A DNA stretch of 64,000 bases from assembly GCA_964017235.1 (NCBI GenBank), contig OZ024930.1:152954221-153018220 (forward strand). Reading direction: 5' to 3'. A program made the translations under genes and the position numbers. A model generated the notes under the pieces. That model saw only the letters and a list, made by a program, of their open reading frames with translations, had not been told where the DNA came from and did not search any database. Positions 19,819 to 58,139 of this stretch are shown piece after piece (within the stretch, counting starts at the first letter, position 1; each line of letters starts with the position of its first letter). The stretch comes from Sabellastarte sp. h YS-2021. Its lineage: Eukaryota; Annelida; Polychaeta; Sabellida; Sabellidae.

Positions 19819-19827
19819 AGAAGAAAA

Positions 19828-20784
19828 GGTACACAGACAATTGGTCAGTGGACAGTTGGCCAGTGGACAACTGGCCAGCGGACAACTGGCCGGTGGACAA
19901 CTGGCCGGTGACTTTTTTTGGGGAGTAGGACAATTGGCCGGTGACTTTTTAAAAGTTGTTTTAGAATTTGTTTTTTTCAATTTTATTGACTCAAAACATA
20001 GAGAATTGAACTCATCAAAGTGTTTCACAAGCACTGTTATTGGTATACAGGGTAAAACAAGGTTATAACAATTCATCAAAACATATTAAGCACTATCATT
20101 GGTATAAACAAATGAAACATAAAATAGCAATACATCAAAACATTACATTATCATTAGCACTGCCATTGATAAAAACACTAAAATTGGCACAAAGAGCCTT
20201 TACTTCTTTATTGTAGCAATCCTGAGTAGTTATCAAAGTGCCTTCACTTCTTTATTCTAGCAATCCTGAGTAGTTATCAAAGAGCCTTCACTTCTTTGTT
20301 GTAGCAATCCTGAGTAGTTATCAAAGAGCCTTCACGTCTTTGTTGTAGCAATCACGAGTAGTTATCAAAGACAAACTCTTGCAGCAATCCTAATTATAAA
20401 TTCTGATTAGGGAAAAAAGGCTTTTGGTTCTTTCATGATCTTCACAATAAATGGAAGCAGGTAATGAAAAATAAATTTATAAGCATATCATTATTATAAG
20501 ATTTCCTAACTATGAGCAGCTAAACAAAAGAAAATTTTAAGGCAATCTGAGTAGGAATCAAGGGACCTTTAGTGTGTGCAACCTAGCAAAAAGACATACT
20601 ATGACTCTATTTGCAATATGAAGACAACTTGTAAAATTTAAAACAATATTAAAACAACTTTTAAAAAGTCACCGGCCAATTGTCCTACACCCCAAAAAGT
20701 CACCGGCCAATTGTCCCACCGGCCAGTTGTCCACCAGCCAGTTGTCTACCGGCCAATTGTCCACCGGCCAATTGTCCCGGATTC
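19828..20784. mobile_element. Foldback element A (GGACAAYTGGCCGGT phrases)
   Basis: 129-bp inverted arms at 19835-19963 and 20650-20778 consist of repeated variants of GGACAACTGGCCGGT, followed by GTGACTTTTT and GTAGGACAATTGGCCGGTG. The right terminus is CCCGGATTC. The 9-bp direct repeat AGAAGAAAA flanks the element (19819-19827 and 20785-20793), a convincing target-site duplication. The AT-rich core contains four tandem units of about 58 bp (20195-20395). There is no transposase, so it is non-autonomous. Confidence 0.88.
20195..20395 (+). repeat. 58-bp tandem repeat inside foldback element A
   Basis: About four copies of AGCAATCCTGAGTAGTTATC plus CAAAGAGCCTTCACTTCTTT. A similar CTGAGTAGTTA word lies in the core of foldback element B near 51700. 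Confidence 0.85.
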
Positions 20785-21109
20785 AGAAGAAAACTAGGGA
20801 AATATGCACTTGTCATATTGCCATGCTGAAATCTTCTTAAATTCTTCACATGCCTATAGTAACTTGTCATAATCAGAGCTTCTTAAAATCCCAGATACTC
20901 GCATACCTAAGAACTTGTTGTAATGAAAGCTTCTTAACTACATTGATATCACAGGACAAGCCACACATTAATACTAAAATGTGACAAGGAATATTTGTTA
21001 TTTAAAGATTTTGATTTTTTAAGGTTTTAATAGTAATGATATAATAATGATATAATATTTGATATGATGTATAAATAGCATCATCATCATGCATGCTGAT
21101 TTGTTTCAG
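20785..21109. other. Intron DNA without recognizable features
   Basis: AT-rich sequence ending in the polypyrimidine tract of exon 3 (TTTGTTTCAG). Confidence 0.5.
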
Positions 21110-21223
21110 TTCATGGTCTTGGTCCTATTGAAGCTTTCACAAAAAATGTCCGTGAAACAAAACAAAGACCAGCAACACACAATGAAGGATGGGCTATCAC
21201 CCAATTGAATGGTGACCATGATG
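21110..21223 (+). CDS. LRRC74-like: LRRC74-like gene, exon 3
   Basis: Acceptor TTTGTTTCAG, donor GATG|GTAAGG, both strong. It reads VHGLGPIEAFTKNVRETKQR followed by PATHNEGWAITQLNGDHD and ends with one codon base, matching exon 4. No domain is recognized. Followed by a 14.2-kb intron that contains the alternative first exon. Confidence 0.75.
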
Positions 21224-22319
21224 GTAAGGATTTTTTCTGTATTTAATCAGATTGTTTCTCAAGTTATATTTCATAAGCCAATAAAAATATATAAATATCT
21301 ATATTCTTGACTCTTGTTTAAAATATTTTTAGTCTACATATTGATACTTGCTTATTAAACTAATATCATAAGTTATTTAAAACTGTTTATCAAATTAATT
21401 TTGAAATAATGTAGTATATTAATAAACTTTTACAGAAATTTTAAATTTTTTGTTGACATTGTTATTTATTCCAAGAAATCTGCATACATTTGAATCTTAT
21501 TGAAATGTTAATTATTAAATGTAAGAGCTGTAAATTATCTCGACCATATCATGAAATAGTTTACCAAATTTCAGTTGACATGTAATTATTGTTTTTGCTT
21601 GAAATTTTCAAGCTAATTTCACACCAAATTTTATTATTTTTTTTTTCGGTGATACTAGTTGCATGTAATAGTACATTATGCATTCAAGCATGATCTTTGT
21701 ATGTGTACCTTATGATATTGGTCACTGTTACTAGGTGATTTTGAAAAATAACATTTTCATATAAACACTTGATTTCTTATATAATTATATATTCAAATAT
21801 ATTATTAATATACATGTATTTCAGAAATGTCTGTGTTTTTAAACTCAGGTTCATCTTATTATATGTGTCCAATCTATTCATTTTGAAATTATATATTCAT
21901 TTCTGTTTTGTGATAAATTTATGTTCAATATTTAATGATAAAAAATCTATTAGCAAAAATCTATTAGCATTTCCTCACTAAGAAATAATTTGTCAGAGTT
22001 ATGATAGCTTACTCTTTTGTTTGTGCAATAAACTTAAATGATGTGTATGGTAATATAAAAGCAAATATTTCAAGCCACAGTTGTAAGACACAAGTGATGA
22101 TTATTCATACAAAAACAAGACTTGCTGAAGGACTGTTGTGTAGTTTATTCTTCCTCTGTCTCATTCTTTCAATCAAGATTTAGAATAAAATAATTGCACC
22201 ATCTAAGTTTTCATTACAAAACAGAAGTAACAAAAAACATTTTTTTTATCATTAAATATTGAACATTTGGGGTTTCTCATACATTGTTTAAATTGTAAAA
22301 GCTAATACACAGCAATAAA
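21224..22319. other. Intron DNA without recognizable features
   Basis: Very AT-rich. No supported feature. Confidence 0.5.
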
Positions 22320-22480
22320 CAGTTCTGTTCCATGGCGTTATGAACATCAATCTTAAATTGATGGTTTTGGGGAATGTCTCTGTGCACTTCTCTCCTTCCT
22401 TCGCTCAAACAGATGTCACGATGTAACATATGCAATGTGTTGAAGGCCATGTTAAACCCAAATCAATCAATAAATTCATG
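22320..22480 (+). mobile_element. SINE-like 3' tail
   Basis: GTTGAAGGCCATGTTAAACC followed by CAAATCAATCAATAAAT resembles the 3' end of tRNA-derived SINEs common in molluscs. A 5' tRNA-like part with A and B boxes is not clear, so this is probably a truncated copy. Confidence 0.4.
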
Positions 22481-22762
22481 ACATCCCGCTTCCCCTGAAG
22501 CATTAGTTGTTGCCTTGCTGGTGGTATTGTTTTAAAACTAGAATTCTTTAAAAGCCTGGAATCACCATCCAAACAAATTCAAAATTGGAAATATATATAG
22601 TATTTGAATTTTTGAGAATGTATTTGGAATCCCAAATGTTATGCATCACATTTGGATGACAGTTTCAGGCTTTTGTGGGATCCTTTTTTTCTTTGCAATA
22701 GAATGATATTAAATGGTTACTTGTGCTATTGCCATATTTCATTTATATCCTAACTTCAGGTA

Positions 22763-23135
22763 CAGTAGACTCTATATAAGTATCAAATGTCTGCATTGAA
22801 GATCAAGATAAAAGTATTTAATTTATTCCTTCCACTCAAAGCCCTGTGTTACTTTACGTCAACATAAAACTTATACTGAAATATATTTTGAGCTCAAATT
22901 CATCCTTAATCTTAATGTTTTGATGTTCAGTCATTAAAGAATTCTAACAAAAAGTTAACAACACTAAGCTCTTGAGAGGCTTATTTTAGTTTATTCCGAT
23001 TACCATATGCTGCTGTAAAATATTCAATCTTTAAATCTATATGTCATTTTATTTTGGTACACCTTGATATATTCGGTCGAAGTTAAAATTTTTAGTTCTA
23101 TACATTGGAAACATCTACTTATATATAGTCTACTG
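22763..23135. mobile_element. pogo/Tc1-mariner-type MITE
   Basis: 373 bp, flanked by TA on both sides. The 19-bp terminal inverted repeats are CAGTAGACTCTATATAAGT (left) and the complement of ACTTATATATAGTCTACTG (right), with one mismatch. It has no coding capacity. Confidence 0.8.
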
Positions 23136-24589
23136 TATTTGCCTGATAGGTATGGAAAGCAAGAGGCGTAGAAAACCCAAGCAGAAGAACAAGTCAGGCA
23201 CCATGTTGTATAAACCATCAAATACTTGTAAACAGTTTGGGGAAACCCATAACAAATAATGTCGGGACTTACGACAATATAGTATTGCACTGAACTAAAT
23301 ACCACTTCGGATTTCTCTATTGTTGTCTATAAAAGTACTTGTTGATTTTAGTAAAATACTCATACAATGTTTAATCTATGACTTTAGAGATTAGAAGATT
23401 TATAACTGGACTCACAACATACCAATATCTGCTACCTTTGTGAAAAATTTGTTTGAAGTCTGTGTTACCTTGTTGAATATTATAAGAAATGACAGAAATA
23501 ATGTGCTATTCATGCAGTTCTCATTCTATGTACACTTGGACCCGTTTAGGTGGAAGTTTGTAAATTGGAATTGCCTTTAAGTAGAAGTAAATATCAGGTC
23601 CATGGATTACTTCTGCTGTTAAACTTAAAGTGGGGGTTCCGTAGTTCCAACTTTAGCCCCCTACTCTTCACAATTTTGAAGTCAGGAGCATTTTTTGCAA
23701 AGTCCTATAGGTCAGGAAGCTAAATTTGGAAGTCTGGGAAAGAGATGTAACATGTTTAGTATTTTTGGAAGTCGGCAACTTTGATTCCCGTACCCCAATA
23801 TTATTAGAGGCTGGTTGAATAGGTCGGGAAGCACACCAGATTGAGCTTATTACCAATATCACAGATTGGATTGGTGTTGCAACCAGTCGGATAAAAATCT
23901 CATAGATCAGGAAGTTTTTGACCCAGGATTTGGCCCCAAAAATGAAATAATGGCTACAAGCTTTTATCCCTCAAAAATGTCATCTGCATTTCCATCTGGT
24001 TGGATTAAATTTGGATAGGGCGGCGTCAAGGTTGGGAAAGGATAGGTTGTCAGACCAGTCTAGGAGGTCCCACACTGATCGGGATGTATTTGAATATCCC
24101 GCCTTTTTTGGCACTTCTTTGGCACCTTTCTGAATATCTATATCCCAATCCCAGGCCTCTGTCTTGGCAGTCCCTGAATATGGAAACCAAGCCTTGACCC
24201 TGTTGTACAGAATTTCAAGTTAAGTTGAACTATATAATATTAAATCACTCGACATTTGTCTGTACCTGCATGGTTTTAATATGCAGTTTAACCCTTTTAA
24301 GTCATGATTTTCTATTAACAGAGTAAATGTAACAGAAAAGGCATTGTGAGGACTCAATATCTGCTTCTATATATCATGATTTCTACTTAACTCAGTTCCA
24401 CTTAGAGAGATTTTAACTATTTTCCTTATTGAGTATTCATAATGTTATATAGTATATAACTTTGATGTAATCCTACTAGATAATGTTTGCATTTGGAATG
24501 AAGCGTACATAATAGTAAACAGTGAAATAAAGCTCAGATTACATTCAGATGTGTGACTTATTTGTGTAAAATAAAATTAATAATTACAT
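23136..24589. other. Intron DNA with an unassigned repeat-like patch
   Basis: From 23620 to 24200, variants of AGGTCAGGAAGTTTTTGACC and GGAAGTCTGGGA recur without a clean period, suggesting an old decayed mobile element. The rest shows nothing. Confidence 0.4.
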
Positions 24590-26370
24590 TAGCATTCTTA
24601 AAACTTATTTTGTATCAGTGACTTGTTTGTATTATCTAACTAATTTTGTATCAGTTGTTGAATTATTTTGTTTCACCGACTTGTTTTGCAGTAAAGATTG
24701 GCTTGTTAGTGTTGCTAGTCTGTTAATAAGGTCTAATCAAAAGTATACATTTGCTTACACCAACCCTCTAAGGTATTTCAAATATTTTAAAATAGCAGTC
24801 TCAAAAACAAAATGTTTTCTGACTTGTGTTAAATACCAAAAGAAGATGTCCAACTCAAATGCAAGTCCCAAGGAAGACATGCTTTACAAATACAAAGCGA
24901 AGTGAACCAAAAACCACAACCAAGTAGACCAGCCTGTTTAGTTGTAGGTTTTGACTCCAGTAAGGAAAGGTATGAACAAGGTGTTAGTACTTACAATAGG
25001 AAAACTTCCCAAATGTAGGAAAGATATATCGTCAATAAAGATAACAATATTATACGAGTGCGTAGCAAGAGTATTATATTGTTAATCTTCTTGAGTGATA
25101 TATTTTTTCTGTATATGTATAATGTGGGATGTTTTACTTTTATATCCACCATTTTACTATTATCCTCCATTTTGTATGATTTGTGAGTTAAATAAATCCA
25201 TATCTAAGGAGAATGTGAAAATGGCCGACATATTTACAGGGGCACCAGTGAATATAAAAACCTCAATATTTAACTTAAGATTTCTCGGCCATCTCTGTAT
25301 AGATTTTTATGCAACAAAATGAACAGAAGCACTGTTAAAATACCTTTCTAATGATATGTAATACCTATTTGTAGGTTACATAGTTTCCGAGATATAAGTG
25401 AGAAGCCGGATGTTACTGACACTACCGTAATTATCTATGGTCAGGTATGCCCTTGTATACAAAAAAATATGTCCCGCTCCGTATATCCCCCTATCCCCCA
25501 AATACGGCATACAGCGGATAATAAAATATGTATTTAAATTCTTTCCCTAGAACTCTGTTAGAAGGATAATACTGAGGGTTCAGTTGAGATTACTGTAGAA
25601 TCAAAATAGTAGAGGGAGCCCAAGTCAGCTGGGTCCTGCCTGAAAATCCCTGACTACAGGAATCCTAACTATATTTGGATACATTAGGAGAATGGAGATA
25701 AGTTCAGTGGGTTAATATATTGATAAGACTCGTTACATCAGAATGTTATATCTCATAAACACAAATCTTAATGAGCCAAACCATTCTAAGGAGACCTCTC
25801 TAAAGTTGGATAATGGCTAAAGGGATCCAGCTCAGTAAAGAAAAACGAAAGGATTTTAGCTTGCAAAATGTCTTATAACCCTGTCTAGAGATAAAGTGAA
25901 AGGGTTGAAGGACAAAATTTAGCTTTGTGATAAGGGAGGTTGGTGGCTGTCAGAAGTTGTAAGTGTATTTGCAAAGGCTGCCTGAATCAATGAGACCCCT
26001 TCTTACTGATAAAGTCAGCCAAGTAATACAAAATAAAACAATTTTACTTCTAGCCATAATTAAAAATTAATTGAATAGTTGATACAGCATAAGTTAGTTA
26101 ATGCAAAGCAAGTTGTTAATTAAAAAAAGTTAGATAATAAGTTATGAAATATCAACTTGTTTTGAATCATCTTGATAATAGGTCAGAACTTGGCACACCA
26201 TTTTGTAAAATAATAAGTGAATTTCTGTTTCAAAATAAGTTATCGGTGTAATACAAAATAAGCATATTTTTATCACAAAAAGTCAGTGATACAAAATAAG
26301 TCAAAAGTTGATAAAATGTAAGTCGGCTGATACAGAACAAGCTAATGATACAAAATAAGTTGTAACAAGC
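24590..26370. mobile_element. Foldback-like element E (CTTATTTTGTATCAGT phrases)
   Basis: The left arm (about 24590-24705) repeats ACTTATTTTGTATCAGTGAC and CTAATTTTGTATCAGTTG. The right arm (about 26000-26370) repeats the complement, GATACAAAATAAGT, at least six times with variation. The core contains the dispersed repeat of 25000-25520. The ends and target duplication could not be fixed. Confidence 0.6.
25000..25520 (+). repeat. Dispersed repeat of about 500 bp, copy 1
   Basis: Matches 30190-30690 in direct orientation. Shared words include AGTATTATATTGTTAATCTT, AAATAAATCCATAT, AATACCTTTCTAATGATAT and the closing TCCGTATAT..CCCC. No ORF is conserved between the copies. Confidence 0.75.
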
Positions 26371-29300
26371 CTTGAAAACTGCAAAGCTTCTTGTCATTGG
26401 TAATACCTGACTTAGCAGCAAATGTTTGTATTCTCAGGTGTGCTTAAATTAGTAGTGTTCTACAGTGCTTGTAGTTCCAAAAACCATGTATACTATACAG
26501 ATTTCCAACGTGATGGTTTCACAGGCAGTAAAAACCTTCCCTTTCGCCGGATGCCTTTAAATACTGGTGCCAGAAACACTGGGTGCAATATGATCAGTAC
26601 AATCAGGACATAAATAGTTCAGTTAAAGTTAATGCCTATTTAGTTGGGTGCAGCATTTTTTTGACTTATTGGTTTGATAAAGAATAGCCATGGGGTATTA
26701 AAAGACGTAGGGAATATTGACTTAACCTATTTTCACATAAAGTAAGAGATAAACAACAGTATTATAATAAGAAGATAAAGTTGTGCAATTTATTGGATTA
26801 GTTTGAAATAATGTCAAATGAATGTTGTTATGCAAATGGCAATAAAAAGAAAACAATTCTCACAGTTTTCACAGCACCTGTATTATGACTGGTTTATTAC
26901 ATATAACTTGAGTAGTCATAAAACACATGTGTAAAGCAATTTTGAAAATCAGACCATAAATAATAACCAAGTTATGGTGATCTTAGTTGAAGGCACTCTA
27001 TTACATATGCTGATGATAACCACTCTCACTGTATGAAGACAGGAGAATTTTTAAGTTAAAAATTATTTGGTAATTAAGTTTTAACAACATTTTTAGATCC
27101 TTAATCATGTGTAGAAATAAATTAACTGCAAAAGTTACTGTAAATAATATTTGTCCACATATTTATATTTTCTCTATAATGACTATGTAATGACATAGTT
27201 GAGGCCTTGTACTGGTAAGAATGAATGAAAATTATTCCCTTACAATGAATAGCGTGAATGCTATGCCATAACAACTTGATGTAACCTCTTCTTTATAGTT
27301 CAACCCCATTAGAACTACCTTTTAAATTATTATAAACATCAACTCATTTCCATGCACATTTACCTCTCTATCTGAGATTCCAGGCTAAATGAAAAAAAAT
27401 TTCTGGTTCCTGTTTATTCATCTCAGAAACAAGACTTAGTATAATTTTTACTGACATTTTACCAAGTCTTAAGAATCCCATCCCCTTGTCAATATGCAAA
27501 GATTTTTTTTTTGATTCTTTGTGAGTAAAGATCAGCACCATGACAAGTAATAATACACAAACTTACTTCTTTAAATTACCATGATACATTGACATAAAAT
27601 CAAAAAAACAAATTACTGTCACACTTTTTGCCATCGTAATTGATCAGTAATGGCAGCTGAAAAGAATCGGGTAAAACTCTGATAAAAAACGGGAGAAACA
27701 AGAGACATTTCATTGTGGAATGCACACCAAATTGTGGGCGCTTTACCCTGAAGCAAACACCAATGTTCCTTTATTATGTGAGAGCTGGAAATTGTATGTG
27801 TAACTGGTACACAACAATACAGGAGCAGTCAACACAGCCAGGCATTTAGAGTGTAGCAAATATTTAACCCTGGGGAATAAGCAAATTCTTTATTTATTAG
27901 TGTATTTACATGTATTTCTTGTTGGCAAACTGTCCTAATATTATCTTTGCAAAGCTCCTGAACCCGAAGGACAATTTCTTATGCAAATAAGACTGTACAA
28001 ATATACCTTACATCTTTTCATCTGTATACAAGTCAACATATTTAAGGCAATAAAAGCACTCCGGCTATATGCATTTTTCTGAAAGGCCCCTTATTAAGAA
28101 AAGTTACATTATGTTAATTGGTGAAAGTCATGATATAAGGATAAAACCACAATTTAACTAAAAGAACACTATTATTCAGACATTCTTTTAATAAAACCTT
28201 ATAGCTGCTATTATTATTAGTGACAAATGTTTTAAAGAAGAAAGCTGATAATTTAAGTACTGCTTAAATGAAAACTTATTTTGAATAGACAGAATTACAC
28301 ATCTCACAATATAAGAAGTTATAGTCAGGTTTAACATGTTAGGGGTTTCAATTTTACATTCCATTAAAATGGCAAAACCTGTTGACTATACAGGTCTACT
28401 TCACAACTGAACTGGCTTTTCACCTGAAAGGTCTGGGGTTTTAATTCTTTAGGATGTCTCAAGTCACAAAAAGCGATATCTGTCAGGTTTTACCATGCTA
28501 TAAGTGACTGGTTTACAGTACAATGACCATGGTTTCCTCCAGCACTAAAACCTGACAACTGTAACACGATCCAAACTATAGACCAGTAATCACAGAAAAC
28601 ATTGTATTTGTCATTAGTGGGTGTACTAGAATGACACCTGAGTACATACAGTTTGTGACTTCTCTTTAATTTTCTCAGGAATCTATTGATCTACTTTTGT
28701 GCTAGTGATGCATTGTTGTCTTCTGGTGGTCAATATTGATAACCATTTACTCGACAAAATGCTCCAGTTTTTTTTGTCGTTTTTCATTGATACAGGGTCA
28801 CTTCTCAAGTAACATCCAAATGAAGTAAAGCATGAAAAATAAATAACGTAATATAATTGATTGTAGTAAGCCATTTAAGCCCGTGCAAATATATTTATTG
28901 AATTGCCTCAAATTTATCCAAAATACAAAACTGAATTTAATTGTATTGTGAGATGCTAATGTCATAGTATTTGAAGACACTCCTAATATGAATTTTTAAA
29001 ACCGCAAATATTTTTTAATTCAAAGAAATATCACAGGACTGTAACTTTTTTCCAAAGTACAGTCTACTTAAACTGGCAATAATAGATTATTCAGAAATGA
29101 AATAATTGATCTATTGTGTATAATTGAATATAATTTGCGCCACAGCATGAAACATACCAGAAATAAAAATATCTTAGGTATTTTTTCAAATGTTTTTTTT
29201 TTTTGTATTTTTGGGATATTTTGGATCCTTTTGACCTTTGAAATATGACAGGTATGAGATTAGGTTTAATGTGAGACATTGTCAGACAATATACAGGATT

Positions 29301-30189
29301 TTGAAGGACATTCCAAATTGACTGTAACCATGTATTTATAGTAACTGATGTTCCGACACTATTGACAGCCTCTGCTGTAGTGTGTTGGTACGTGGTACTA
29401 GTGTTTATCATTTGTTTATAATTTACTTGTTTGAGAGGAACAATTTATGCTTCAGTTGTTCATATTTTTGGGGGCTTGTGTATATCAGCTTTGACCAAAT
29501 TTTTCTTGGAGGAAAAATATATATATTAGAATCATATTTTGTCTTATCTTGCGAACTAAAATATTGGATATATGTATTATTAAGATATCCTTCCACCAAT
29601 TTTATAAATCCATACTTAAAAATTAAGACTACGCATGACTGTAAATCATTTCTATTGAAAGTTTCTTTCTGGATATTTTGATGCCACTGAACAGATCTAT
29701 GGTAAAGTTATTGGCCAAATGGTGTCTCAATCAATCGTCTATTTTGACACATAAACAACAAAATGATTGTGGATAGCAAAGATATATGGCAGATTGATTT
29801 TATTATGGAAAATCTCAGAAAATTTGGTTAAATTTAAGAAAGATACACAGCAATATCACTCTAAGTCCAGGCTATGAATGGATAATGTACCGGCCTGCAA
29901 TAACCATTAGATATTTTTTGGAGTACAAAGATATCACTTGAACTTTTTTACATGAAAAATTAAGGAAATTAAATTGTTAAAATATTAAAGGTAAATAATA
30001 TTTATGCTAAAAATTCAAGGTACCTATATAATCGAGGTTCCAGAAATGATATACAGAAATCATGAGGTGTAGCCTATGTGAACTTTTTATTCAGAGATAG
30101 AATAAGTAAGATATACGACACAGTGTAGATTCAGCAAATGTGAAATTCATCACGGTACAGTGTATCTGAAATTTAATAGGAAAATTTCT
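26371..30189. other. Intron DNA without recognizable features
   Basis: AT-rich. No ORF with recognizable domains, no clear repeat and no paired splice sites were found. Confidence 0.45.
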
Positions 30190-34199: not shown

Positions 34200-34206
34200 C
34201 TGGATA

Positions 34207-41613: not shown

Positions 41614-43587
41614 ATGGCGTCCCCTGGACAAAGAAGAGGGACTTGTGGCCACGCTATGGCATTATTTGACTCCCACACCAAGTGTGCGCGTTGCCGTGAT
41701 AAGGGGCTGGGCCAAGACGCATGTGTTGAGAAGAAGGACTGCTCCATTTGCAATAATTTCACAGCTGAGCAGAAGTTACAGTTGGCCACCCCCACCTATA
41801 GGGCCCGAAAAGATAAAGAACTCCAGAAGAAAACTGCCTCTCCCTCCCTTGTTGATCCGTCTTCAGTAACTGTTGTTGGGAAGGTTGAGAGTGGCAAGGG
41901 TGATTCTAGTGATAGAGGCGAAACCCCTTCTAAGAAGAAAAAGACCTCTCACAAATCCCCTAAGAAGACATCCAAGCCTCCGAAAGTGCCAGATTTTCAA
42001 GCTGACCTGAAATCCCTGGATGAGAAGTGGGCAGATCGCTTTACGCGTCTGGAGGCTCTCTTTTTGTCAAAGACTTTCCAGCTCCCGGTGGAACCGGTTC
42101 AGAGCTCCAATGTGGTGGTATCTGAGAAGCCCTTTATTCCACCAGCTCAGCAATCTACTAGCCAGAGTCCTGCTACCGGTTTGACCGGTAAGAAGAAGAA
42201 GACAGCCACCCAGCCTGTTGAGGCTCCCGGTGTGAAGAAGTCAGCCACCCAGCCTGTTGAGGCTCCCGGTGCTGAGACAGAGCTTCCACCAACCGACCAA
42301 ACTACAGTTTCCTCTGCTGGTGCCCCTGTTAGTGGTCGACCCGAGGTCCAGCCCCCAGGTCCCACTACTGCTGATCAACCGGAAGATTTTGCTTCAGAAG
42401 ATGATCAGTTTAGTGACCAGCCTGACCTCAGTTTAGATGAGGGTGAACTGTCTGAAGTGTTGTCAGCAGGTCCGGATCATGAAGAACCCATAGAAACGGA
42501 CCAGGAGTTAAGTGCAGAACAGACCTACAGAGAGACTCTACGTGGTGTTAGGTCGTTTATGGGCTGGGAGCAAGTGCCAGAGTTTGACTCTTCTTCTTCT
42601 GCACAAGACGACAACCCCTTTGCTGGCACCAGACCTCAGTTGCCCGGTAAAGTTTCTGTGAAGGTTCCGGTGGATGACAGGCTATGCCGGAAATTTGAAA
42701 AACTTAATATTACTGTACAGGAAGGATACCCATCCCGGGCTTCAGAAACTGCTGGCTTAGTCAAAGATCAGTTTGTCAAACCACCAAGAACTCTTAAATG
42801 GTATGACATGCATACAGACAAGAAGGATTTCTCCAGATCCAAAGTGTCTTCCTGGACTAACCAACCGGCACGCCTCAACAGTAGCTTTCCTCGAATTGCT
42901 AACCGGTCACTTCCTTCTGCTCCAGCCTCAAGACCTGTGTCACAGGATACGTTAAGGAAGTGGGAGAGAGCAGCCAGAGACCAAACTTATATGTGTAACC
43001 AGGCTGCCGCGTTTTCCCGTTGCCTCACCAAAGTGCAGGACTCTATGGCTTCTCAGTTGAAAGTGTTACAGAACGACAAGGGCAAGGGAAAATCTACCGG
43101 TAAATCTCATCAGGCTATTGAAGAACTGGACTTTCTAGTGACCTTTAACAAGAGCATCACACAGGCAATGGCCAGAACGATGCAAGATTTATCAGATGGT
43201 GTCTTCATTAATGTGGCCAACCTTACGCTAGCTAGAAGGGACAGCTACCTAGATTATTTGAAAGCCGGAATCAAACAGGACACTTTGAACGCTCTTAGGT
43301 CTGCCCCTCTGCATATGAGTGCCTTGTTTCCGGATCATCTCATCAGCAAAGCTGAGGAAGAAATAAGACACCATGAGGATAAACGTTCTGCCGGTTCTTC
43401 ACACAAGGGTCCCCAGCGTTTCCACCCTTACCACCAGTCCAGTAAACAACAGCAACTAGATCAGGACAGGAAACCCGGTCTACCTGCCTGGAAACAACTG
43501 GGTAGAAGGCGTGGACAAAGATCTCACCGGGGTCGTACTGCTTCATTTTCTCAGCGACCTGCCAAGACACAGAAGCAGTATAAATGA
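41614..43587 (+). CDS. DIRS ORF1, gag-like protein
   Basis: 657 codons from the ATG at 41614; the frame is open from 41566 but the first 16 codons lack coding character. Near the N-terminus is a Cys/His cluster (C11, C24, C27, C37, C43, C46) that may bind metal. Next come a Lys-rich segment (SKKKKTSHKSPKKTSKPPK), Pro/Thr-rich and acidic low-complexity regions with a 36-bp duplication (ATQPVEAPG twice, near 42200-42265), a more ordered C-terminal part and a basic Gln-rich tail. By analogy with other DIRS elements this is the structural protein that would package element RNA; sequence gives no stronger assignment. It ends in TGA followed by C, and the same frame stays open from there to 46809. 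The RT frame overlaps its last 77 bases. Confidence 0.85.
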   Translation: MASPGQRRGTCGHAMALFDSHTKCARCRDKGLGQDACVEKKDCSICNNFTAEQKLQLATPTYRARKDKELQKKTASPSLVDPSSVTVVGKVESGKGDSSDRGETPSKKKKTSHKSPKKTSKPPKVPDFQADLKSLDEKWADRFTRLEALFLSKTFQLPVEPVQSSNVVVSEKPFIPPAQQSTSQSPATGLTGKKKKTATQPVEAPGVKKSATQPVEAPGAETELPPTDQTTVSSAGAPVSGRPEVQPPGPTTADQPEDFASEDDQFSDQPDLSLDEGELSEVLSAGPDHEEPIETDQELSAEQTYRETLRGVRSFMGWEQVPEFDSSSSAQDDNPFAGTRPQLPGKVSVKVPVDDRLCRKFEKLNITVQEGYPSRASETAGLVKDQFVKPPRTLKWYDMHTDKKDFSRSKVSSWTNQPARLNSSFPRIANRSLPSAPASRPVSQDTLRKWERAARDQTYMCNQAAAFSRCLTKVQDSMASQLKVLQNDKGKGKSTGKSHQAIEELDFLVTFNKSITQAMARTMQDLSDGVFINVANLTLARRDSYLDYLKAGIKQDTLNALRSAPLHMSALFPDHLISKAEEEIRHHEDKRSAGSSHKGPQRFHPYHQSSKQQQLDQDRKPGLPAWKQLGRRRGQRSHRGRTASFSQRPAKTQKQYK

Positions 43588-46809: not shown

Positions 46810-46867
46810 GGAGGAGACATTCCTGTAAATATGTACATAATGTATATACTTAGATAAGTATAAATCA

Positions 46868-47250: not shown

Positions 47251-47314
47251 ACGGACAAGACCCTCCCAACCGACCCCGCTATCAGCTTACTAGGGGTCTA
47301 ATAGGTTTAGACAG

Positions 47315-47487: not shown

Positions 47488-47533
47488 GTATTAACTTATA
47501 AAAATTTAATTTACTTATTAAATTTGCAATTTT

Positions 47534-48377: not shown

Positions 48378-48440
48378 AAGCAGAACCACCAATTGACAGT
48401 ACTGGAAAGTATATCTATGAAAAACAGTGCTTAAAACAAG
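48378..48440 (+). CDS. LRRC74-like: LRRC74-like gene, exon 6
   Basis: Acceptor ATATGGTTTCAG, donor CAAG|GTATGT. It reads EAEPPIDSTGKYIYEKQCLK Q and ends with one base of Gly. The GKxIYxxxC..G pattern matches the start of the conserved LRRC74 region. Confidence 0.88.
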
Positions 48441-48838
48441 GTATGTCGATAACTCTGTTAGATTTTCTAATTGTTTTCACATACAACACTCAATTTTAAT
48501 GTTATTATTTTAGAAAAAACAAATCTTCTTATGATAATTAAAGGAGCTTGTCTTTTGCAAAGTTTCAGTTCTGTAAAGGACAAGTTTCAAGTTATTTTAT
48601 CTCATCTATCACTAATGGTTAACCCTTTTAAAGCGACAATAAAACTTTATCCTGAACCCTGATGAAATTCACCAGTCCCTAGTGACTGTTGTTATTTACC
48701 CACCTAACTCCTAATCCCCAACAAATAACACTGTGACTTTATAAATATTATATTTGTATGTATTTTTTTCAAATAAATCAACTGCTTAGCTTTGTAAACA
48801 TCCTGGTGAAATGTGGTGTGTTACATCATGTGTTGTAG

Positions 48839-48948
48839 GCATAGTTCCAGTGAGCTACTTGCTCAGAAATATGGGAGAGAGTAATTTAAGGATGAGACAT
48901 CATTATCTTGGTGGTCATGGAACCAGACCTCTCGCACAGGCCCTCAGG
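48839..48948 (+). CDS. LRRC74-like: LRRC74-like gene, exon 7
   Basis: Acceptor GTGTTGTAG, donor AGG|GTAAGA. It encodes GIVPVSYLLRNMGESNLRMR followed by HHYLGGHGTRPLAQALR, the family's signature segment before the first LRR (VPVSYF-I-RHM and HHGLGP in vertebrate LRRC74A). Ends in phase 0. Confidence 0.92.
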
Positions 48949-50076
48949 GTAAGACACTTCCAGTATAGTCTGACCTCTGTTTTCTGGTATACGAGCATCT
49001 CGTGACCATGGCAGCCCGTGACAAACAACTCGTACCCACAGCTCGTTCCCAAGATTTTTTTTAAATATAGCAGGGAGAATCCACGGACTTCTGTCTCCTC
49101 ACGTTTTTTCCTAATTTGCATAATGTATTTTATAATAGTTCTAAGAAGCCCTCTTGGAATTCCATGACCTCACGTTTTCTAATTTGCATATTTTATTTCA
49201 TAATATTGCTAGGCAACCCCCACAAAAGTACGAGAATTTGAAGTATTTGATCTGTAACTGAACAAACGTTCTTACTTAAATGCTATGTACAAATCTATTT
49301 ATTAAATATAAAATACGATATTGTTAGAAATCCCCACATAATTGGGTGATCTCATATTTCTTCATAAATATTATGAGCTGCATATACAAGTACTACTTAT
49401 TTCATAATTATTCAAGCAGAATTAACGTTTATTCTTATAAAATGTCTGTGTACGAGTTGTGGGTACGAGTTGTTGGTCGCGAGATGCCGTGGTCACGAGT
49501 TGCATGTAAATCTGTTTTCTGTGTACCTTGTGTATCTAAATTTCAGAGGACCCGGAGGTTAAGTGATTTTCAGTTCTTATTGTTTTATTGTTATATGGCG
49601 CTGGACAATGAGCTACATTGGTAAATAATTAATATATCTAGAAATCTTACAAAGATTTAGTATTATAGCAAGAAATCTTTTCTCTCTATTTGCATAAAAT
49701 TTTATGAGCCATGTCACACGTTCTTAAATGACTGACTAAGTGTATACTGAGGATTTATACACACAACTGAACCCCTTAAAGGTCAAAAGTTAATGCTTAT
49801 TAAGTTATTTCTTGTAGCCAAAGAGTGTGCATACACACTCAAGGAGATATTAAAAGAAGACAACACTGTGGAACTGGCAGCCAGAAAACCAGACCCCCAA
49901 ACCATTAAATGCCGCTTTCAAGAACAATTTGTCATATCTTCTGTTTTTTAAGCCTCCTATTATCACCATGGATAGTAGGAGGCTTAAACAACAAAAATTG
50001 TGACAAAGTGAACTGTGTCAGCTCCCCTTCTTAGTGATTTCCGAGCCAACTATATTGTTGTGACCTTGAATTGTAG
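48949..50076. other. Intron with pseudo-exon candidate and small hairpin
   Basis: TGTGGGTACGAGTTG words recur near 49020-49080 (complement) and 49450-49490. A possible exon at 49816-49950 has a good acceptor but the wrong phase. A 12-bp stem hairpin (TTAAGCCTCCTA / TAGGAGGCTTAA) lies at 49948-49987. Confidence 0.5.
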
Positions 50077-50184
50077 GATAACACTATAACAGAAGAAATA
50101 GACTTAAGTGACAACTATATAGAAGGTGACGGGGCAAAATACTTGGCTCAGGTGCTGAAAGAAAACATGTTTATTGTAAATTTG
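50077..50184 (+). CDS. LRRC74-like: LRRC74-like gene, exon 8 (LRR)
   Basis: Acceptor GAATTGTAG, donor TTG|GTGAGT, phase 0 at both ends. It encodes a full LRR unit, DNTITEEIDLSDNYIEGDGA KYLAQVLKENMFIVNL. Confidence 0.93.
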
Positions 50185-50554
50185 GTGAGTAGATTGGTAG
50201 CTTTTTGTCATGTTTTAAATCAATAAAGGATTAAAAACATGTATATTATCAAAAGTAGATTGTATGTCATGAATAACTGAATGCTGCTTTTAATTATAAA
50301 TTCAGACAAAAGAAAATTAGTTAAAATTAGTTAATTCTTACTTAACCTGTTGTGGTTGTCACAATAGGGATCAGCCAAACCTTAGTCATGTCTTTGCTCA
50401 ATAATTATTTTTTGTTAATAGTGTCTTTGCTCAATAATTATTTTTTGTTAATAGTGCACCAAGTACATAAATTTAATACATAGGTGAATTCTGAAAAAGG
50501 CAAGGGTAACACTGTTTTACATCTCATACCTATATATACTGATGTATGTTTCAG

Positions 50555-50648
50555 AATGTCTCCAACAATTTCATGCGTACTAAAGGTGCTGAAGCTGTCT
50601 GTGATATGCTTGAAAACAATACTACCCTCAAAACTCTCTCAGTCAAAG
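50555..50648 (+). CDS. LRRC74-like: LRRC74-like gene, exon 9 (LRR)
   Basis: Acceptor TGTATGTTTCAG, donor AAAG|GTATGA. It encodes NVSNNFMRTKGAEAVCDMLE NNTTLKTLSVK and ends with one base of Gly. It continues the LRR of exon 8 (NLNVSNN). Confidence 0.92.
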
Positions 50649-51067
50649 GTATGACATCTCAACAAGGACAAGCAATATTCATATTTAAATAAATAGAATA
50701 ACTGCTTTTGACAGCAATGTACAATTATATGCTGAAAGTTGAAAGTGAAGAAGTTTTAATATTGTCATAAAGTATGAGTGAGGAATTTCACTGGAGTGAT
50801 GAACTGCAGCTGAGTTGTATGGTTCTTAACTATTGTGTGCAGAAACTATCAACAGTCATGCTATAGTTATGTGAAAGCTGTCAGCAGAGTTTACAGCTTG
50901 CAACTTAATGTGCGTTCATTCAGTTTCAATACATTGGTAATTGTTTTCAGTGATCTGTGTTATTTGAAATTAAAATGTTGATATATTATCCCTTCCCCAG
51001 TGACTCGTTTGAATAGATTTGCCCCTTACATCCACGAGGGCCAGAAGCTGTAGCTTGATGGTAAACT
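50649..51067. other. Intron DNA without recognizable features
   Basis: No supported feature before foldback element B. Confidence 0.5.
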
Positions 51068-51075
51068 GTAAACAG

Positions 51076-51924
51076 ACAAAACCCCACTGGGCATAACCCC
51101 ACTCAGACCAAACCCCATCGGGCAAAACCCCACTCAGACACAACCCCACTCAGATAAATAAGAATGAGGACAAAACCCCACTCTTCATGACAAAAACAAA
51201 ATATTTATTATGTACAGAGTTTTAATTGATACAAATACAAAGTCATGACAAAAATAGACATTGATAGACATTTGTATGAAGAACATAATGCAAAACCACA
51301 TTATCTTTAAGCACTAATATTTAAGCACATTACATTAAGCAAAATACATAATTGCTTTAGTAAGTTATATTAATAAAAATAAAAAGGAAAATATCACAAA
51401 GTTTGTAAGCACTTTGCATGCACTTTCTAATATCCTAATGTCTCACAAGTATCACCAAATATCACAAAATTTCTAAGCACTTTATATCCTAATATCCCAC
51501 ATTTGTCATAAGATATCACAGAATTTGTCAGCAATATAATGAAATCTAGAAGACAATGATTCATTACCATAGCTGCCCACATTTATATACACAGACTGAT
51601 CTAACAAGATTAACTGTCGATTGCAACTGAGTAGCTACTACCACTGAACACAAAGCCCACTTCAAACACTACAAGATTTAACTGTTCCTTTTATCATAAA
51701 AGCCTGAGTAGTTAGCATCACTGAACCAATTCAAACTTAAGATTTAACTTAACATTTAAAAAAACATCCCCATTAACATCTTCAAATTTTTAAAATAATT
51801 TTAAAAGTGGGGTTTTGTCTATAAATTAGTATAAGTGAGTGGGGTTGTGTCTGAGTGGGGTTTTGCCTGATGGGGTTTGGTCTGAGTGGGGTTTTGCCCA
51901 GTGGGGGTTTGCCCTGGATTCATG
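51076..51924. mobile_element. Foldback element B (CAAAACCCCACTCAGAC phrases)
   Basis: The arms at about 51076-51185 and 51800-51915 are inverted copies made of repeated CAAAACCCCACTCAGAC / CAAACCCCATCGGG variants. The right terminus is CCCTGGATTCATG. The direct repeat GTAAACAG (51068-51075 and 51925-51932, extendable to 13 bp) is a likely target duplication. The AT-rich core has loosely repeated AAATATCACAAAATTTCTAA words and AGCCTGAGTAGTTAGCATCA. No transposase is present. Confidence 0.85.
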
Positions 51925-51932
51925 GTAAACAG

Positions 51933-52718
51933 ACAAATATTGATTTTGATATTTGATCCAAGTTTTCATGCAGACACTATAGCTTACCTGTATACTGGCA
52001 AATGCCTCAGTGGAGATCCCTCTTCTTTCAAAGGTATAAATATGATGGGTGCTTATGTCACATAGATGAATGTGACTGAATTGAACTGTAACAATAAATT
52101 GCTTTTACTCAGTGAGCCATCCAACTATACTCACATATAAGCTGTGGTTATTTTCCTGTAAACATGAGTGATATGTTTTATTTGAATGTTTATTTGTCAC
52201 ATGTAACATGTATTTTTGAAATATTATGATGGATTGTTTTACTCAGTGACTCCAACAACTAGATCAAAGAAGATCAGTTTTTGTTTTCTGAAACATGTCA
52301 CACCATAATATTTTGACAGTTTATTCTTTAAAGTGGCAAAGATTGCTTTATGGTATTGGTGATTATTTTCCCAGATGAAAGTCAAGCATATACTAGTTTC
52401 ACATCCTTCGCGCCGCCACCGCAGTACGCTGTGACTTGTGTGCCAATAATTCAAAAATGCTTTCACGGAATTCATTCAGACTTGGCACACACATGCATTT
52501 GGGTCAGGAGAAGAACCCTATTTTAATGTGACATTAAAATCACAATAATAAATAAGTTATTTTTACACATATTTTGCCCTGTAATCTGAAAATAGTAAGT
52601 CTGTCAAGTCTCAAACTGTCTAGCTTCTATATATAATCTTTGAGGAAAATTTGAATCTGTAGCTTTAATTTTAAGGTCACCTTGTATAATTTTGTGAAAT
52701 ATTATTTTGTGACTGCAG
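51933..52718. other. Intron DNA without recognizable features
   Basis: Leads to the acceptor of exon 10; nothing else is supported. Confidence 0.5.
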
Positions 52719-52849
52719 GTAACCAGTTGTCAGACAAAGATGCTCAAAGGATTGGGGAAGCTTTGAAAAACAACCTATCTCTGAACACACTGGACTTGAG
52801 TTACAACAACTTTGGAGAGGATGGTGGAATCCATTTAGCAGCTGGAATG
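52719..52849 (+). CDS. LRRC74-like: LRRC74-like gene, exon 10 (LRR)
   Basis: Acceptor TTTGTGACTGCAG, donor ATG|GTAGCC. It reads GNQLSDKDAQRIGEALKNNL then SLNTLDLSYNNFGEDGGIHL AAGM, about one and a half LRRs. Ends in phase 0. The frame continues a little past the donor into a stop, so retention of the intron would truncate the protein. Confidence 0.93.
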
Positions 52850-53876
52850 GTAGCCATTTATAGATTTTTTTCTGCCCAGTTTTATAGTATATAAAGTTAG
52901 GAATTAGGAATCAAGCCCCCAGTAGTGAAACTTGATGCTAACTCGGTATCTGATTTATGAGATATTGTTTGTTCTACTGGTGAATTTGGAACTTTGAATT
53001 AAACATTTTTAAAAGCTACAATAGATAAAATATTGTTAAAATTTTCAACTATATACACTATATCACATCAACTAAATATAATGGATTTAATGAAAAATTG
53101 CAACCATAGTTTCAGTTTAACTAAAACAAAAAATATTACTGACAACCTGGGGTTGTACCAAAACTGTTAATAAACTCTGTATACATGCAAGCTGTTACTT
53201 ATATTCCATGACCCGTTGCAACATTTCAAGGATTGTTTGCCCTAAGTTCTAATGGTAGATGGTTATCCATTAAAGAATACTACAAGAAGAACTCATATAA
53301 ACAGTATCTTGATATATGATATTTCTTGATACTGCATGTATACCTTGATCCCTTCCCCAGTGTCCCCATGGTACACTGCTACTTGCAACTAACTTCCAAT
53401 TACACCAAACAAGAAGCAGTAACATTAAGTACATTAAAATGTACCTACTTCTTAAGTATTTTGACTTTGTATAGATGGATTTGCTTTAACAGCTTTGAGT
53501 GATGCAGTTTTAATGTCGTCACTCTCCGGCGTACGCATGAACAACTTCTCTTCCTAAACTACAATACCCAGAGACATGCTGCTTTTTTTAAAAGATACCT
53601 TAACTATCGAGGATGAAAATTTGTTCAAGCCATGCAGATCTGTTTGTTTGTCTGTTCCCTAGAGTCATTACAAATCAGGTACCCCCACCCAAAATGTGAA
53701 AATTTCAACCCTTTATCGCAATTTTCTCATCCACTATTGCAGGGATTTTTCTCATATCTTGCATATATGTACTAGGCCACTAGTACATTAACTTGTGTGA
53801 GAATTAGACCTGGATCTGTCTTAATTTTTTTTTATTAATTTTTGAAATAATTTTAATGCAATAAAATTCATGAAAT
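52850..53876. other. Intron DNA without recognizable features
   Basis: No exon or clear repeat. The next part of the intron is satellite-rich. Confidence 0.5.
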
Positions 53877-55010
53877 CATGCACTAAAACACTTATAACTT
53901 GAAAAGTATTGCAGTTAGAGCATTTTGTTAAAATATGTTATTCAACTACTTTTTACATAGCTACAACATGGTGACTAACTTGAGTGTCTATCCCAATAGC
54001 TAAGTGAGTAATAGCTACTTTCTGATTTTTCAGTACCTCCCATAATGAGTAAAATCACCTATAACTTGAGAACTATTGCATATACAGAATTTTGTATAAA
54101 TATGTTATTCAGCTACTTTTGGGTCAGCTACAGCATAGTAAAGTTTCAGACCTGTAGCTCAGTGCATAGCTGAGTAATAGCTACTTTGAGGTTATCACTG
54201 TTGAGTAAATCAGTTCTAACTTGAAAAATATTCCATTTACAGTATTTTGTTTAAATATGTTGTTCACCTACTTTTGGGTTAGCTATAATATAGTGAAATT
54301 ACAGACCTGTAGCTCATGGCACAGCTGAGCAATAACTATTTTCAGGTACTGACTGTTGAGTAAATCAGTTGTAACTTGAAAAATATTGCATTTGGAGTAT
54401 TTTGTCAAAATATGTTGTTCACCTACTTTTGGCTCAGCTATAACATAGTGAAATTACAGACCTATAGCTCATGGCATAGCTGAGCAATAGCTATTTTCAG
54501 GTTCTCACTATTGAGTAAATCAGTTGTAACTTGAAAACTACTACATTAAAAGTATTTTGCTTAAATATGTTGTTCACCTACTTTTGGGTCAGCTATAACA
54601 TAGTAAAAATTCGGGGTACGGACATTTCGTACCCGGACAATTCGTACCGGGACATTTCGTACCGGTACATTTCGTACTGAGACATTTTGTACCCAGCCTA
54701 GGACATTTCGTACCCAAATATTTTAAAAGGCAAACAACACATCCAGATAACATTTTATTAAAACATATATAGTGAAATTACATATATTAAAACATATATG
54801 TAACATAAAGATTGAAAACATATATGTTGAGTAAATCAGTTGTAACTTGAAAACTGTTGCATTCAGAGTATTTTGTTTAAATATGTTATTCACGTAATTT
54901 TTGGTCCGCTATAACATAGTGAAATTGCAAACCTGTATGTTATGGCATAGCTGAGCAATAGCTACTGTCAGGTTCTCACTGTTGAGTAAATCATTGTATC
55001 CACTGGATAG
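53877..55010 (+). repeat. 155-bp satellite array interrupted by foldback arm C
   Basis: Units of TAACTTGAAAAATATTGCAT ... AAATATGTTGTTCACCTACT ... TAGCTCATGGCATAGCTGAG. Markers at 53943, 54110, 54265, 54420 and 54575 give spacings of 155 bp after the first. The array is broken at about 54605-54830 and resumes until 55010. A related fragment occurs at 58146-58235. Confidence 0.88.
54609..54830. mobile_element. Foldback element C, single arm (GGACATTTCGTACC phrases)
   Basis: The arm at 54609-54718 repeats GGACATTTCGTACCGG with variants five to six times, beginning ATTCGGGGTACGGACATT. It is followed by about 110 bp of AT-rich core (AACATTTTATTAAAACATAT). The opposite arm is missing. It is inserted in the 155-bp satellite. 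Confidence 0.75.
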
Positions 55011-56040
55011 CCACAGTGTGTAGAGAGATTTCACCATTACCGCTCTAACGAACAAAAATATTATAGCTAGCCTTCTCAAGTTTGCAGGATATATTGATCA
55101 AAGTGACTTGGCTACCGACAATGACGGTTTCACAGTATACAGCTTTCGGTTACCGTCTTTGATTTCCGATGACTATCATACATATCTACTGTCATAGACA
55201 TATCAGTACTTTATTCAATTTTAAATAGTTTACACAAAGAAACACACAAACAAACATCTTAAATGCAACTGTCAATCAAATAAGTGAATTTATTTACGTG
55301 ATGTGTGATATGTATCCCTTACTTACAATAACTGAATGTTAATGCAGCCATCGGAATTGCAATCAGCTAATAAGGCATGAAGATTTGGATTTGGGTTGTC
55401 AGTTACAATAACTGAGTGTTAATTAATGCATTGGGGTGTGTACATAAATTCCGACATTTAGACGTTGAGTACCCTTGTATGCATATCTGTCAGTTTTTCA
55501 TTTTTTTTCATTATGTACACATATATGTATGTAGATTTTATATTGCCGGATGCAGAAGTAAAAGTTCAGTTATCTTTATCAGACACTGGCTATATGAACT
55601 AGTAAAATTAATTTGTGTGTACTTATATGACTTTTAGTTATTTTGATAAATAAACTAGTTGTAAACTAGTTTTATTGCCTTCCAGCATATTTTACTGACA
55701 TCGGCATATTTTACCGACATCAGCATATTTTACCAACATCGGTCACGCAAAGTAAAGGTTTCTGTAACCGTTGGCGGTTACACAGTCGCAGCCTATATTA
55801 ATAACCATAAAATGTTGCCTGGGAATATTTTTGGCCTCATTTTGAAAAACATGATGGCCGCCAGGGACGTTTATTCGACTTAAAGGAAGGACTTTTGTTG
55901 GCCGCCTAGAGCAAAGAGGTATAGATCTCAAATTGGCAGGATATGTTCGTCATTAAAAAATCTTGACTGGGAATATTTTTGAACTCATTTTGAAAAACAA
56001 GATGGCTACCACTGGTGTTTCTTTGTTAGTCATGAAAAGT
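55010..56040 (+). repeat. Modules related to the 14030-15200 array
   Basis: Border words AGAGATTTCACCATTACCGC and modules GAATATTTTTGGCCTCATTT / AACATGATGGCCGCCA (55830-56010) match 14030-15200. The segment 55100-55800 between them holds ACAGTATACAGCTTTCGGTTACC-like words and no ORF of note. Confidence 0.7.
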
Positions 56041-56310
56041 GCTTATATTTCACTTATTATTGGTCCTAGAGGTTTGGGATGGTAAACCAACCTATAGGAC
56101 ATCATGGGCTGGGAATCTTTTGGTGTGGTCAGATTTGATCTTTGGACCCCTCCTTCAAGGTCAGATGAGGACAGCCAAACTTAAAAGTGCTTATAACTCG
56201 CTTATTATTGGTCCTAGAGGTTTGGGATGGTAAACCAACCTATAGGAAATCATGGGCTGGGAATCTTTTTGTATGGCCGGATTGGACCCCTCCTTCAAGG
56301 TCAAACGAGG
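56040..56310 (-). repeat. Tandem repeat, inverted relative to 1-280
   Basis: Two units with AAGTGCTTATAACTCGCTTA and TTGGTCCTAGAGGTTTGGGA, period about 143 bp. This is the reverse complement of the family at the start of the window. Confidence 0.85.
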
Positions 56311-57170
56311 ATATTGCATTTGCAGTATTTCTTTAAATATGTTTTAACCTACTTTTTACATTTAAACAGTTACCTTGTTACTTTCCTTCATAATACCATT
56401 TGCAGGGCACAACTTTTGTGTCCTTTTCTTCTGTCACTTCTAGTATATATATAGTGGAGTACTAGTAGATTCTCTTGTGTGAGTATCAGACCCACATCTA
56501 TCTTAATTTATTTTAAATATTTTTTTTTGTGTTGAAAAACATGAAATTACACACTTAGTCGCCATTTTCTCAGTCACTATGATAGGGATTTATCTGAAAT
56601 CTTACATTTTTATAGCGAAATACTCCTACCATTTCCTAAAAGTAGCTATTATGTTGGAGCCATCCAACCCAATGGCCAACGCCAAAAAGCGTTTTTAAGG
56701 TAACGTTATATAACAACCTTAATCAGCCAAAGGGCTACATAGTAGTCCGTCCTCCCGCCACTAGGTCACCTGACCACTCTTTGTTTACCATATTTTGTTG
56801 GCCATCTTAGTAGTCAAGATATATTTTTGAAAGCTCTGATTGTGGACATTTTCTTTACAAAATATCTTACAATACAGATTCTTATGACATATCAACAAGA
56901 AATAATCTTCATTTGGACACGTTATACAAGTAAATACCTTACAATTCTGTGGATTTTTGGGTATCATGCGATCCATGTGCAGTTTGGAGACAGATTTGTG
57001 TCATGGTTTTGCTAGGAACTGGACTTCTACAGATACATTGAATGAAGGTTACTCAAGTTCTACAAATATATGCCTACCTTTTGCTGCTACTGTGGAAAAG
57101 ATGGTTATTTTAGCAAAATCCTTGCATTACACCGCTACGGTGGTGAATGGAGGTAAAAAGTCTTAGGCAT
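56311..57170. other. Intron DNA without recognizable features
   Basis: No supported gene. Small ORFs at 56785-57166 lack recognizable domains. Confidence 0.45.
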
Positions 57171-58139
57171 AGGACAAAAAGTATTTCATATATATTTTAT
57201 TTATGCATGCGTATTATATGAATGTGTACATATATGAACTTCAATTTACTTATTTTTATAGATTTTTTGTACATTGCAAAACAGTGTTTGGGATTTACAT
57301 GGTCCTTTAAATTTCAATAATTTTTGGGATTAACATTATCACAAATGGCTTCATTGCTTTTGTTTTGCCTGATGCACACTATTATGGTGTGAAATCTTTT
57401 GAAGTATATTAGATGTGGCTTCACAGCATTCTATCCTTTAAAATCAAAGAAAAACTCTGATGAAGTGAAATTGTATGAAGTATATTAGATGGCTTCACAA
57501 CTTTCCCTCTTTCCAATCAAAGAAATACTATTATGAAGTGAAACCCTTTGAATTATAATACCTGTGGCTTCACTGCCTTTTAATCTTGTATCCTTTGCAA
57601 TCAAAGAAAATCTATAATCTTTTGTATTATATTAGATATAGCTTCACTGTCTTTGAACTTTCCTTTTCAATTGAAGAACAGTTATTGTTTTTACAACACA
57701 AAAGCATGAATGTATGAAAAGAATAATGTAATTGTAATTAATTCCATCTTTGATATGGGAACACTTGACAATGCAATTGGGATAAAAACTACAAGACACA
57801 TTATTAAGTGTTCCTTTTCAAGTGTACTCTGGTAGGTTTGAGTAACAAATGATCATAATAAAGATTTCAAAAGCCTAAGCATAGATTAATGGTATGAAGC
57901 TGCTCAGGGGGGGATTAAGTTGTTAAAATACAAAAAAGTGTCAGCGACAAATATACAAATAACAAATACTTCTTTGTGCTGTAAATGTGCAGTGACTTAC
58001 ATATGTTTTATACAACACTAAATGTAAAATAAAAAAAATTAATACTTTTTGTCCGGATATGCAATACTTTTTGTCCAGATACTTTTTGTCCTACTCATTT
58101 TAAGGTCAATACTTTTTGTCCAGATACTTTTTGTCCTAC
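57171..58139. mobile_element. Foldback element D (GGACAAAAAGTATT phrases)
   Basis: The left end is AGGACAAAAAGTATTT at 57171. The right arm (58041-58139) has five copies of the complement, AATACTTTTTGTCC(AGAT/TAC). The core contains tandem units of about 80 bp at 57395-57680 (GAAGTATATTAGATGTGGCT, TTTCCAATCAAAGAAA). No transposase is present. The flanks belong to the same satellite-rich intron. Confidence 0.8.

Follow-up and report, generated by a model that had tools for sequence, protein, structure and literature searches.

Elements A, B, and C, three of the five structures with phrase-built arms in the window (the whole stretch of 64,000 nucleotides that was analyzed), are genuine foldback transposons of one kind. 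In our judgment, they are very probably non-autonomous cut-and-paste transposons of the Mutator/Foldback kind, laid out like the Tm1 elements of root-knot nematodes, and moved by a MULE transposase that longer relatives would supply. To the initial annotation, all five structures had looked like one transposon family. One plan is indeed shared by A, B, and C. D, however, lies within a Helitron-like element, and in E both the GGACA core and a target duplication are missing. What was proposed as one family is one plan used by several families, probably with two transposase branches, and D and E leave the set.

RESULTS

Ends and arms of elements A, B, and C

The features of the window are collected in Table 1, and the genome that was searched comprises 1,785,957,881 bases in 647 contigs. 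Inverted phrase arms, which had been reported at five places, are present at A, B, D, and E, but C has one arm only. The borders first proposed for A (19828–20784) are exact, with AGAAGAAAA flanking each side; B is a real element, but it spans 51067–51921, between two copies of ATGGTAAAC, rather than 51076–51924; and the end of C is present, but it starts at 54613 instead of 54609. Tandem units of 58–80 bp had also been described in the cores. Such units occur in D (73 bp × 2.6) only, whereas those of A and B measure 44 bp (× 4.1) and 54 bp (× 1.9), respectively. The C copy in the window lacks its right arm and sits within a 155-bp tandem array, and the inverted arm is present in six of the seven C copies examined elsewhere. 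The array adjoins C at 54046–54608, and similar units were noticed by eye in the cores of a 3.4-kb copy of A (L076) and of a 5.8-kb element of family F (see below).

Table 1. Positions of the foldback elements and associated features in the window
Feature	Position	Strand	Description
A, left target duplication	19819..19827		9 bp, AGAAGAAAA
Element A	19828..20784	+	7-nt end, phrases GGACAACTGGCCRGT, spacer, inner phrase, core, inverted arm, end GGATTC
A, right target duplication	20785..20793		9 bp, AGAAGAAAA
E	24595..26368	+	degenerate 18–19-nt phrase arms, no duplication found
B, left target duplication	51058..51066		9 bp, ATGGTAAAC
Element B	51067..51921	+	phrases GGRCAAAACCCCACT in each arm; ends TGTAAAC (family GGTAAAC) / GAATCCA
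B, right target duplication	51922..51930		9 bp, ATGGTAAAC
Element C, truncated	54613..54829	+	left end GGGGTAC, five phrases GGACATTTCGTACCC, spacer, inner phrase, core start
Helitron-like carrier with D inside	55788..58433	+	left border approximate; right-end hairpin GTGCCCGTTCACGGGCAC + TCTACTCTTGTT
D, single left phrase	57170..57184	+	
D, right arm	58040..58143	-	end GATTGTA, phrases GGACAAAAAGTATCT with one degenerate slot, spacer, inner phrase (by eye)

The 7-nt ends differ at the two sides of each element, being GGTGCGC and GAATCCG in A, GGTAAAC and GAATCCA in B, and GGGGTAC and GGGTGTA in C. Exact A ends were found 94 + 103 times in the genome, versus 0 + 0 with a reversed control pattern, and exact B ends 122 + 127 times, versus 2 + 0; because these counts are far above the reversed controls, the end patterns of A and B are not due to chance. 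Facing pairs, as judged by eye, consisted of one end of each type in 17/17 cases for A (100 places listed of 197) and 25/25 cases for B (100 places listed of 249).

With fixed borders, a script recovered an exact 9-bp duplication at seven of nine A loci; the other two are the copy in the window (L001), which was exact upon a separate check, and L002, which is one base off by eye. At 18 of the 30 B loci the script likewise found an exact 9-bp duplication, two more had partial ones (7 and 8 bp), and ten gave no result, where one or both ends were not located or there was no match of ≥6 bp. Duplications of C were 8–9 bp long in five of seven copies, 7 bp in one, and absent from one. The comparison of termini and duplications that had been recommended across the sets bore out the likeness of A, B, and C, which agree in asymmetric 7-nt ends and have duplications of 9 bp (A and B) or 7–9 bp (C). 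All three show the duplication length of MULEs, which is 8–11 bp according to the portions consulted of PMC6446971.

Reading inward, an arm consists of the 7-nt end, commonly five phrases of ~15 nt, a spacer of 6–18 nt, one further phrase, and an A/T-rich stretch, and this plan is constant in A, B, and C while the phrase sequence changes from family to family. Phrases were counted from the ends inward in distinct arms only, and duplicate arms were dropped for a C copy that is present as both L002 and L070. Arms most often have five outer phrases (A, 10/18 arms; B, 45/53; F, 5/7; G, 1/2; and C, 16/20, where the 20 still include unreal or cut arms, namely a 61-base fragment, L084, and two that lie within A arms, at 1593 of L007 and on the minus strand at position 43309 of the window). 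The number ranges from 1 to 7 in A, and the second G arm has six. An inner phrase follows the spacer in 15/18 arms of A, 52/53 of B, 17/20 of C, 6/7 of F, and 1/2 of G, so that 91 of the 100 distinct arms pooled over these families, with units of 15–16 nt, have both spacer and inner phrase. Spacers measure 16–18 nt in A, 16 in B, 6 in C (one was scored as 14), 15–16 in F, and 11 in G. Because copies inside one family are related, it is the number of families that provides independent evidence for the plan.

The trinucleotide GGA lies immediately inside both 7-nt ends of A, C, and F, is found in G, and occurs at one end of B (with GGG at the other); in J, one end has AGA instead. The motif AAGCAC(T) in the cores, which was picked out visually on a single strand of A, B, C, and G, was dropped, being absent from F, I, J, and H; each F copy has one reverse-strand match. 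A scan of viral contigs with the C phrase gave 0 matches.

Other phrase families in the genome

Loci L001–L079 and the window were scanned for tandem units having an inverted partner, which yielded five more phrase families: F (GGAAAAAATGCCTCCT), G (GGAATAGTGCCCTCCT), H (TTGAAAATCCCCAGA), I (GGACAAAAAGAAACC), and J (GACAAAAGCCCCCCCT). In one F element, the ends are GAATCCG and GGTGCGC, exactly those of A, and they come with a 9-bp duplication (GTAAATTAC) and a phrase that differs from A's. The F end pattern occurs 137 + 137 times in the genome, versus 0 + 0 for the control; 100 listed ends, read by eye, comprise 64 GATGCGC, 29 GAATCCG, and 7 GGTGCGC, and the facing F pairs seen by eye among the places listed join opposite ends in 5/5 cases. 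Family I is inserted in a C copy that is found uninterrupted elsewhere, with the duplication reading as TTCATAAT or CTTCATAAT. Its arm at L072 has five phrases plus one and is the sole valid I arm in the phrase counting, the remaining I entries in the table of counts being mostly D arms (one D row is, in turn, L072). J has the duplication ACTTTTGCC, as judged by eye. The coexistence of many phrase families in a single genome, with ends reused with another phrase, adds to what is known of such elements.

At L022 (1229–2934), a B element whose left side is shortened seems, judging by eye, to be nested in a G-type foldback.

A MULE transposase between the arms of C

A search of the genome with the PF10551 (MULE) profile gave 633 first-look candidates, of which 150 were scored. 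An autonomous-type partner, for which a search had been recommended, was found for C and is likely for F, but none was found for A or B. At L077 (~4.36 kb), a MULE gene lies between C arms that are bounded by an 8-bp duplication (TATTTTCT), and pieces of its product match ZSWIM3_N, FAR1, the ZSWIM1-3 RNaseH-like domain, and MULE; FAR1 and ZSWIM3_N are matched instead of the FLYWCH N-terminal domain, for which these pieces gave no match. A second copy, at C6:48019805–48021223, is 98% identical to the L077 transposase and has an open frame of 783 aa. The C right arm is present at the right end predicted from L077, and the C left arm lies ~10.6 kb from it, with CTTCAAGT adjoining both; the intervening stretch was read in part. 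A ZSWIM3/FAR1-type transposase with such arms is likewise an addition to what is known. On the same contig (C6), a G-type foldback end starts ~0.1 kb past the point where the 10.6-kb C element ends on the right (L083, reverse complement 364–480).

No transposase was found between the arms of A or B in the listed pairs (100 of 197 A places and 100 of 249 B places), nor in the longest A and F copies examined. L076 was tried as an autonomous partner of A and proved to be repeat-type sequence with no long transposase-like frame; this A copy (L076:50–3433) has a 9-bp duplication around it and a core with a Helitron-like hairpin and satellite-type repeats. The 5.8-kb F element was tried in the same way, and the 2.7 kb read mid-element is also repeat-type, with no long transposase-like frame. 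Two A copies near MULE genes were ruled out as partners, since neither flanks the gene; that in L008 is complete with its own duplication, and that in L078 is truncated. Because both were just neighbors, mere closeness to a MULE gene is weak evidence. The end windows of three more MULE copies (C18, C8, and C11) contained no arms.

Three of 100 listed F ends fall within 3.5 kb of the 150 scored MULE places, versus 0.06 expected with uniform placement. At the one such locus examined, a single F arm was seen, which terminates in GGATTC; an open MULE fragment, with the arm ~0.9 kb downstream of it, is the likely partner of F. The fragment has no meaningful similarity to the C transposase, and on this comparison the F protein would probably belong to a different branch from that of C, making two transposase branches in all.

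Three ZSWIM3-type transposases, one of which has known arms, are 64–68% alike in their FAR1/ZSWIM3-type N-terminal part and 46–49% alike in the rest; the higher conservation of the N-terminal part does not favor its changing together with the phrase. Upstream of three ZSWIM3-type frames (L077:271–1120, L078:3399–4100, and L008/L079, with a frame of 803 aa), CCGTC/GACGG-like sites, a motif picked by eye, form clusters of 5, 4, and 3 (shuffled means of 0.65, 0.54, and 0.52), with 1 each in two coding parts.

Structures D and E

The borders initially given for D (57171–58139) are not mobile ends, as similarity extends past D to 58391–58440 in 24 of the 29 other copies examined. Read by eye, the right arm of D has two pairs of phrases with a degenerate slot between them, and then an 8-nt spacer and a single phrase; the script scored two outer phrases in 26/29 rows. 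The carrier in which D lies terminates at its 3′ side in a constant hairpin plus TCTACTCTTGTT, followed by unrelated flanks (20 copies), while its left borders vary. By eye, no target duplication was apparent in these 20 copies, and the carrier thus combines a 3′ hairpin with lack of target duplication, as Helitrons/Helentrons do. It contains ~147-bp tandem units, and its flanks gave 1613 first-look candidates. A duplication scan at the arm ends of D itself returned one 8-bp candidate with a mismatch. We read D as a worn remnant of an arm with this plan, lodged in a Helitron-like element. Just to the left of this carrier, at 55685–55742, a 19-bp unit (GCATATTTTACCGACATCG) is present three times.

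The phrases of E are 18 nt long and lack GGACA. In its entirety, E is single-copy among 40 scored places; a segment of a highly abundant repeat lies in its interior (7349 first-look candidates with the whole of E as query), and its right arm has 39 other scored relatives, with 78–82% identity. A scan for 8–10-bp duplications at its arm ends gave one 8-bp candidate with a mismatch, which gives no ground for placing E among the Mutator/Foldback elements, and we assign E to no family.

DISCUSSION

Movement of the elements and alternative explanations

We envisage that a MULE transposase encoded in longer relatives would bind the phrase arrays at several sites per arm, pair both ends, and then cut at the 7-nt ends, with insertion by an 8–9-bp staggered cut; A and B would presumably depend on such a protein as well, and each phrase family would presumably have a transposase of its own. 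By analogy with Galileo, whose unrelated transposase binds repeats in this way (PMC3688188), the phrases are most likely repeated transposase binding sites. They could drift or be exchanged while the plan stays fixed, and ends could be reused with a different phrase, A and F being candidates. We also entertain, tentatively and with more doubt than conviction, the idea that the phrase is an exchangeable address that can be swapped whole, in which case the catalytic machinery would dictate the 7-nt ends, the five-plus-one spacing, and the length of the duplication, and a separate part of the transposase would read the phrase. If true, one genome would hold many MULE lineages distinguished mainly by phrase, and the pair A and F, which differ in phrase but not in ends, would represent a natural swap.

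It is improbable, in our estimation, that all five structures belong to one recent family with one transposase, in which the arm was rewritten by slippage or gene conversion. The plan common to the elements, the GAATCC end in A, B, and F, and the two ends common to A and F would fit such a history, but the MULE proteins that adjoin the C and F arms lack meaningful similarity, and their placement on different branches (probable for F) argues against a single family moved together; in addition, the C ends are unlike those of A and B, D sits in another element, and E has neither the core nor a duplication. We would give even less credence to the arms being those of a Galileo/P-type (THAP) foldback rather than Mutator, for while P-type transposases too go with repeat-bearing foldback arms in the parts consulted of PMC3688188, the gene between the C arms is a MULE, and the duplications are 8–9 bp long.

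With respect to D, an explanation that we regard as unlikely, though a serious competitor, is that it is an integral piece of its Helitron-like carrier, with a likeness to the plan that is convergent and not a relic. All 40 scored copies contain D at 92–100% identity, the same right flank continues in most copies examined, D shows no duplication of its own, and no D-less carrier copy (that is, no continuous match across an empty site) was found in the 40 scored of 1613 candidates; these searches, however, favor D-bearing copies. Moreover, the right arm of D reads by eye as the same plan, and family I, whose phrase is near-identical to D's, is a true insertion in a C copy. We retain the reading of D as a worn arm of the plan. 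The many families, two of which have both ends in common, offer a way of testing which parts of a MULE transposase recognize the ends and the phrases, respectively, and whether transposon lineages are set apart by a change of phrase.

Comparison with known systems

The TU elements of sea urchins have foldback arms with 15-bp tandem repeats and mixed cores, and, on this general description, resemble the present elements in arms, repeats, and cores, but differ in having 8-bp duplications. The main text of a paper on the hard clam (PMC8905726) contains no instance of "foldback" and a single mention of MULE, in a table; among the titles and opening lines of abstracts covered, all of open-access papers, none described foldbacks of bivalves or tandem-repeat-bearing Mutator elements of mollusks. 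The published systems that follow are compared as described in the portions consulted of each paper. Galileo has repeated arms that hold several transposase binding sites, and is similar in that respect, but its transposase is P-type with a THAP domain, in contrast to the MULE between the C arms (PMC3688188). Phantom and other animal MULEs share the MULE domain, 8–11-bp duplications, and subterminal repeats (short subterminal tandem repeats occur in 10/12 long-TIR Muta families; PMC5225508), but differ from the C transposase in the N-terminal domain; the portions examined of PMC6446971 and PMC5225508 hold no description of the arm plan.

The nearest counterpart is Tm1, a Mutator/Foldback element of root-knot nematodes, with 9-bp duplications, asymmetric 7-bp ends, GGA, and 13–15-bp units (1–9 in number), followed by a spacer motif and one more unit, and with a Phantom-type MULE transposase (PMC3169594). 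A, B, C, and F are like it in having asymmetric 7-nt ends, adjacent GGA (at one end only in B), units, and a spacer plus one unit; 9-bp duplications are shared by A, B, and F, and a MULE transposase by C. Since the same plan has been published for Tm1, their kind is already known. The elements described here differ from Tm1 in the sequences of ends and units, in having five units most commonly, and in the FAR1/ZSWIM3_N of the C transposase, which takes the place of FLYWCH in the Tm1/Phantom protein. Furthermore, Tm1 has one unit type per species, whereas at least A, B, C, F, G, I, and J exist here side by side. That the nematode element matches so closely suggests an old and constrained arm layout (7-nt ends, GGA, run of units, spacer, and one unit), with a unit sequence that is free to change.
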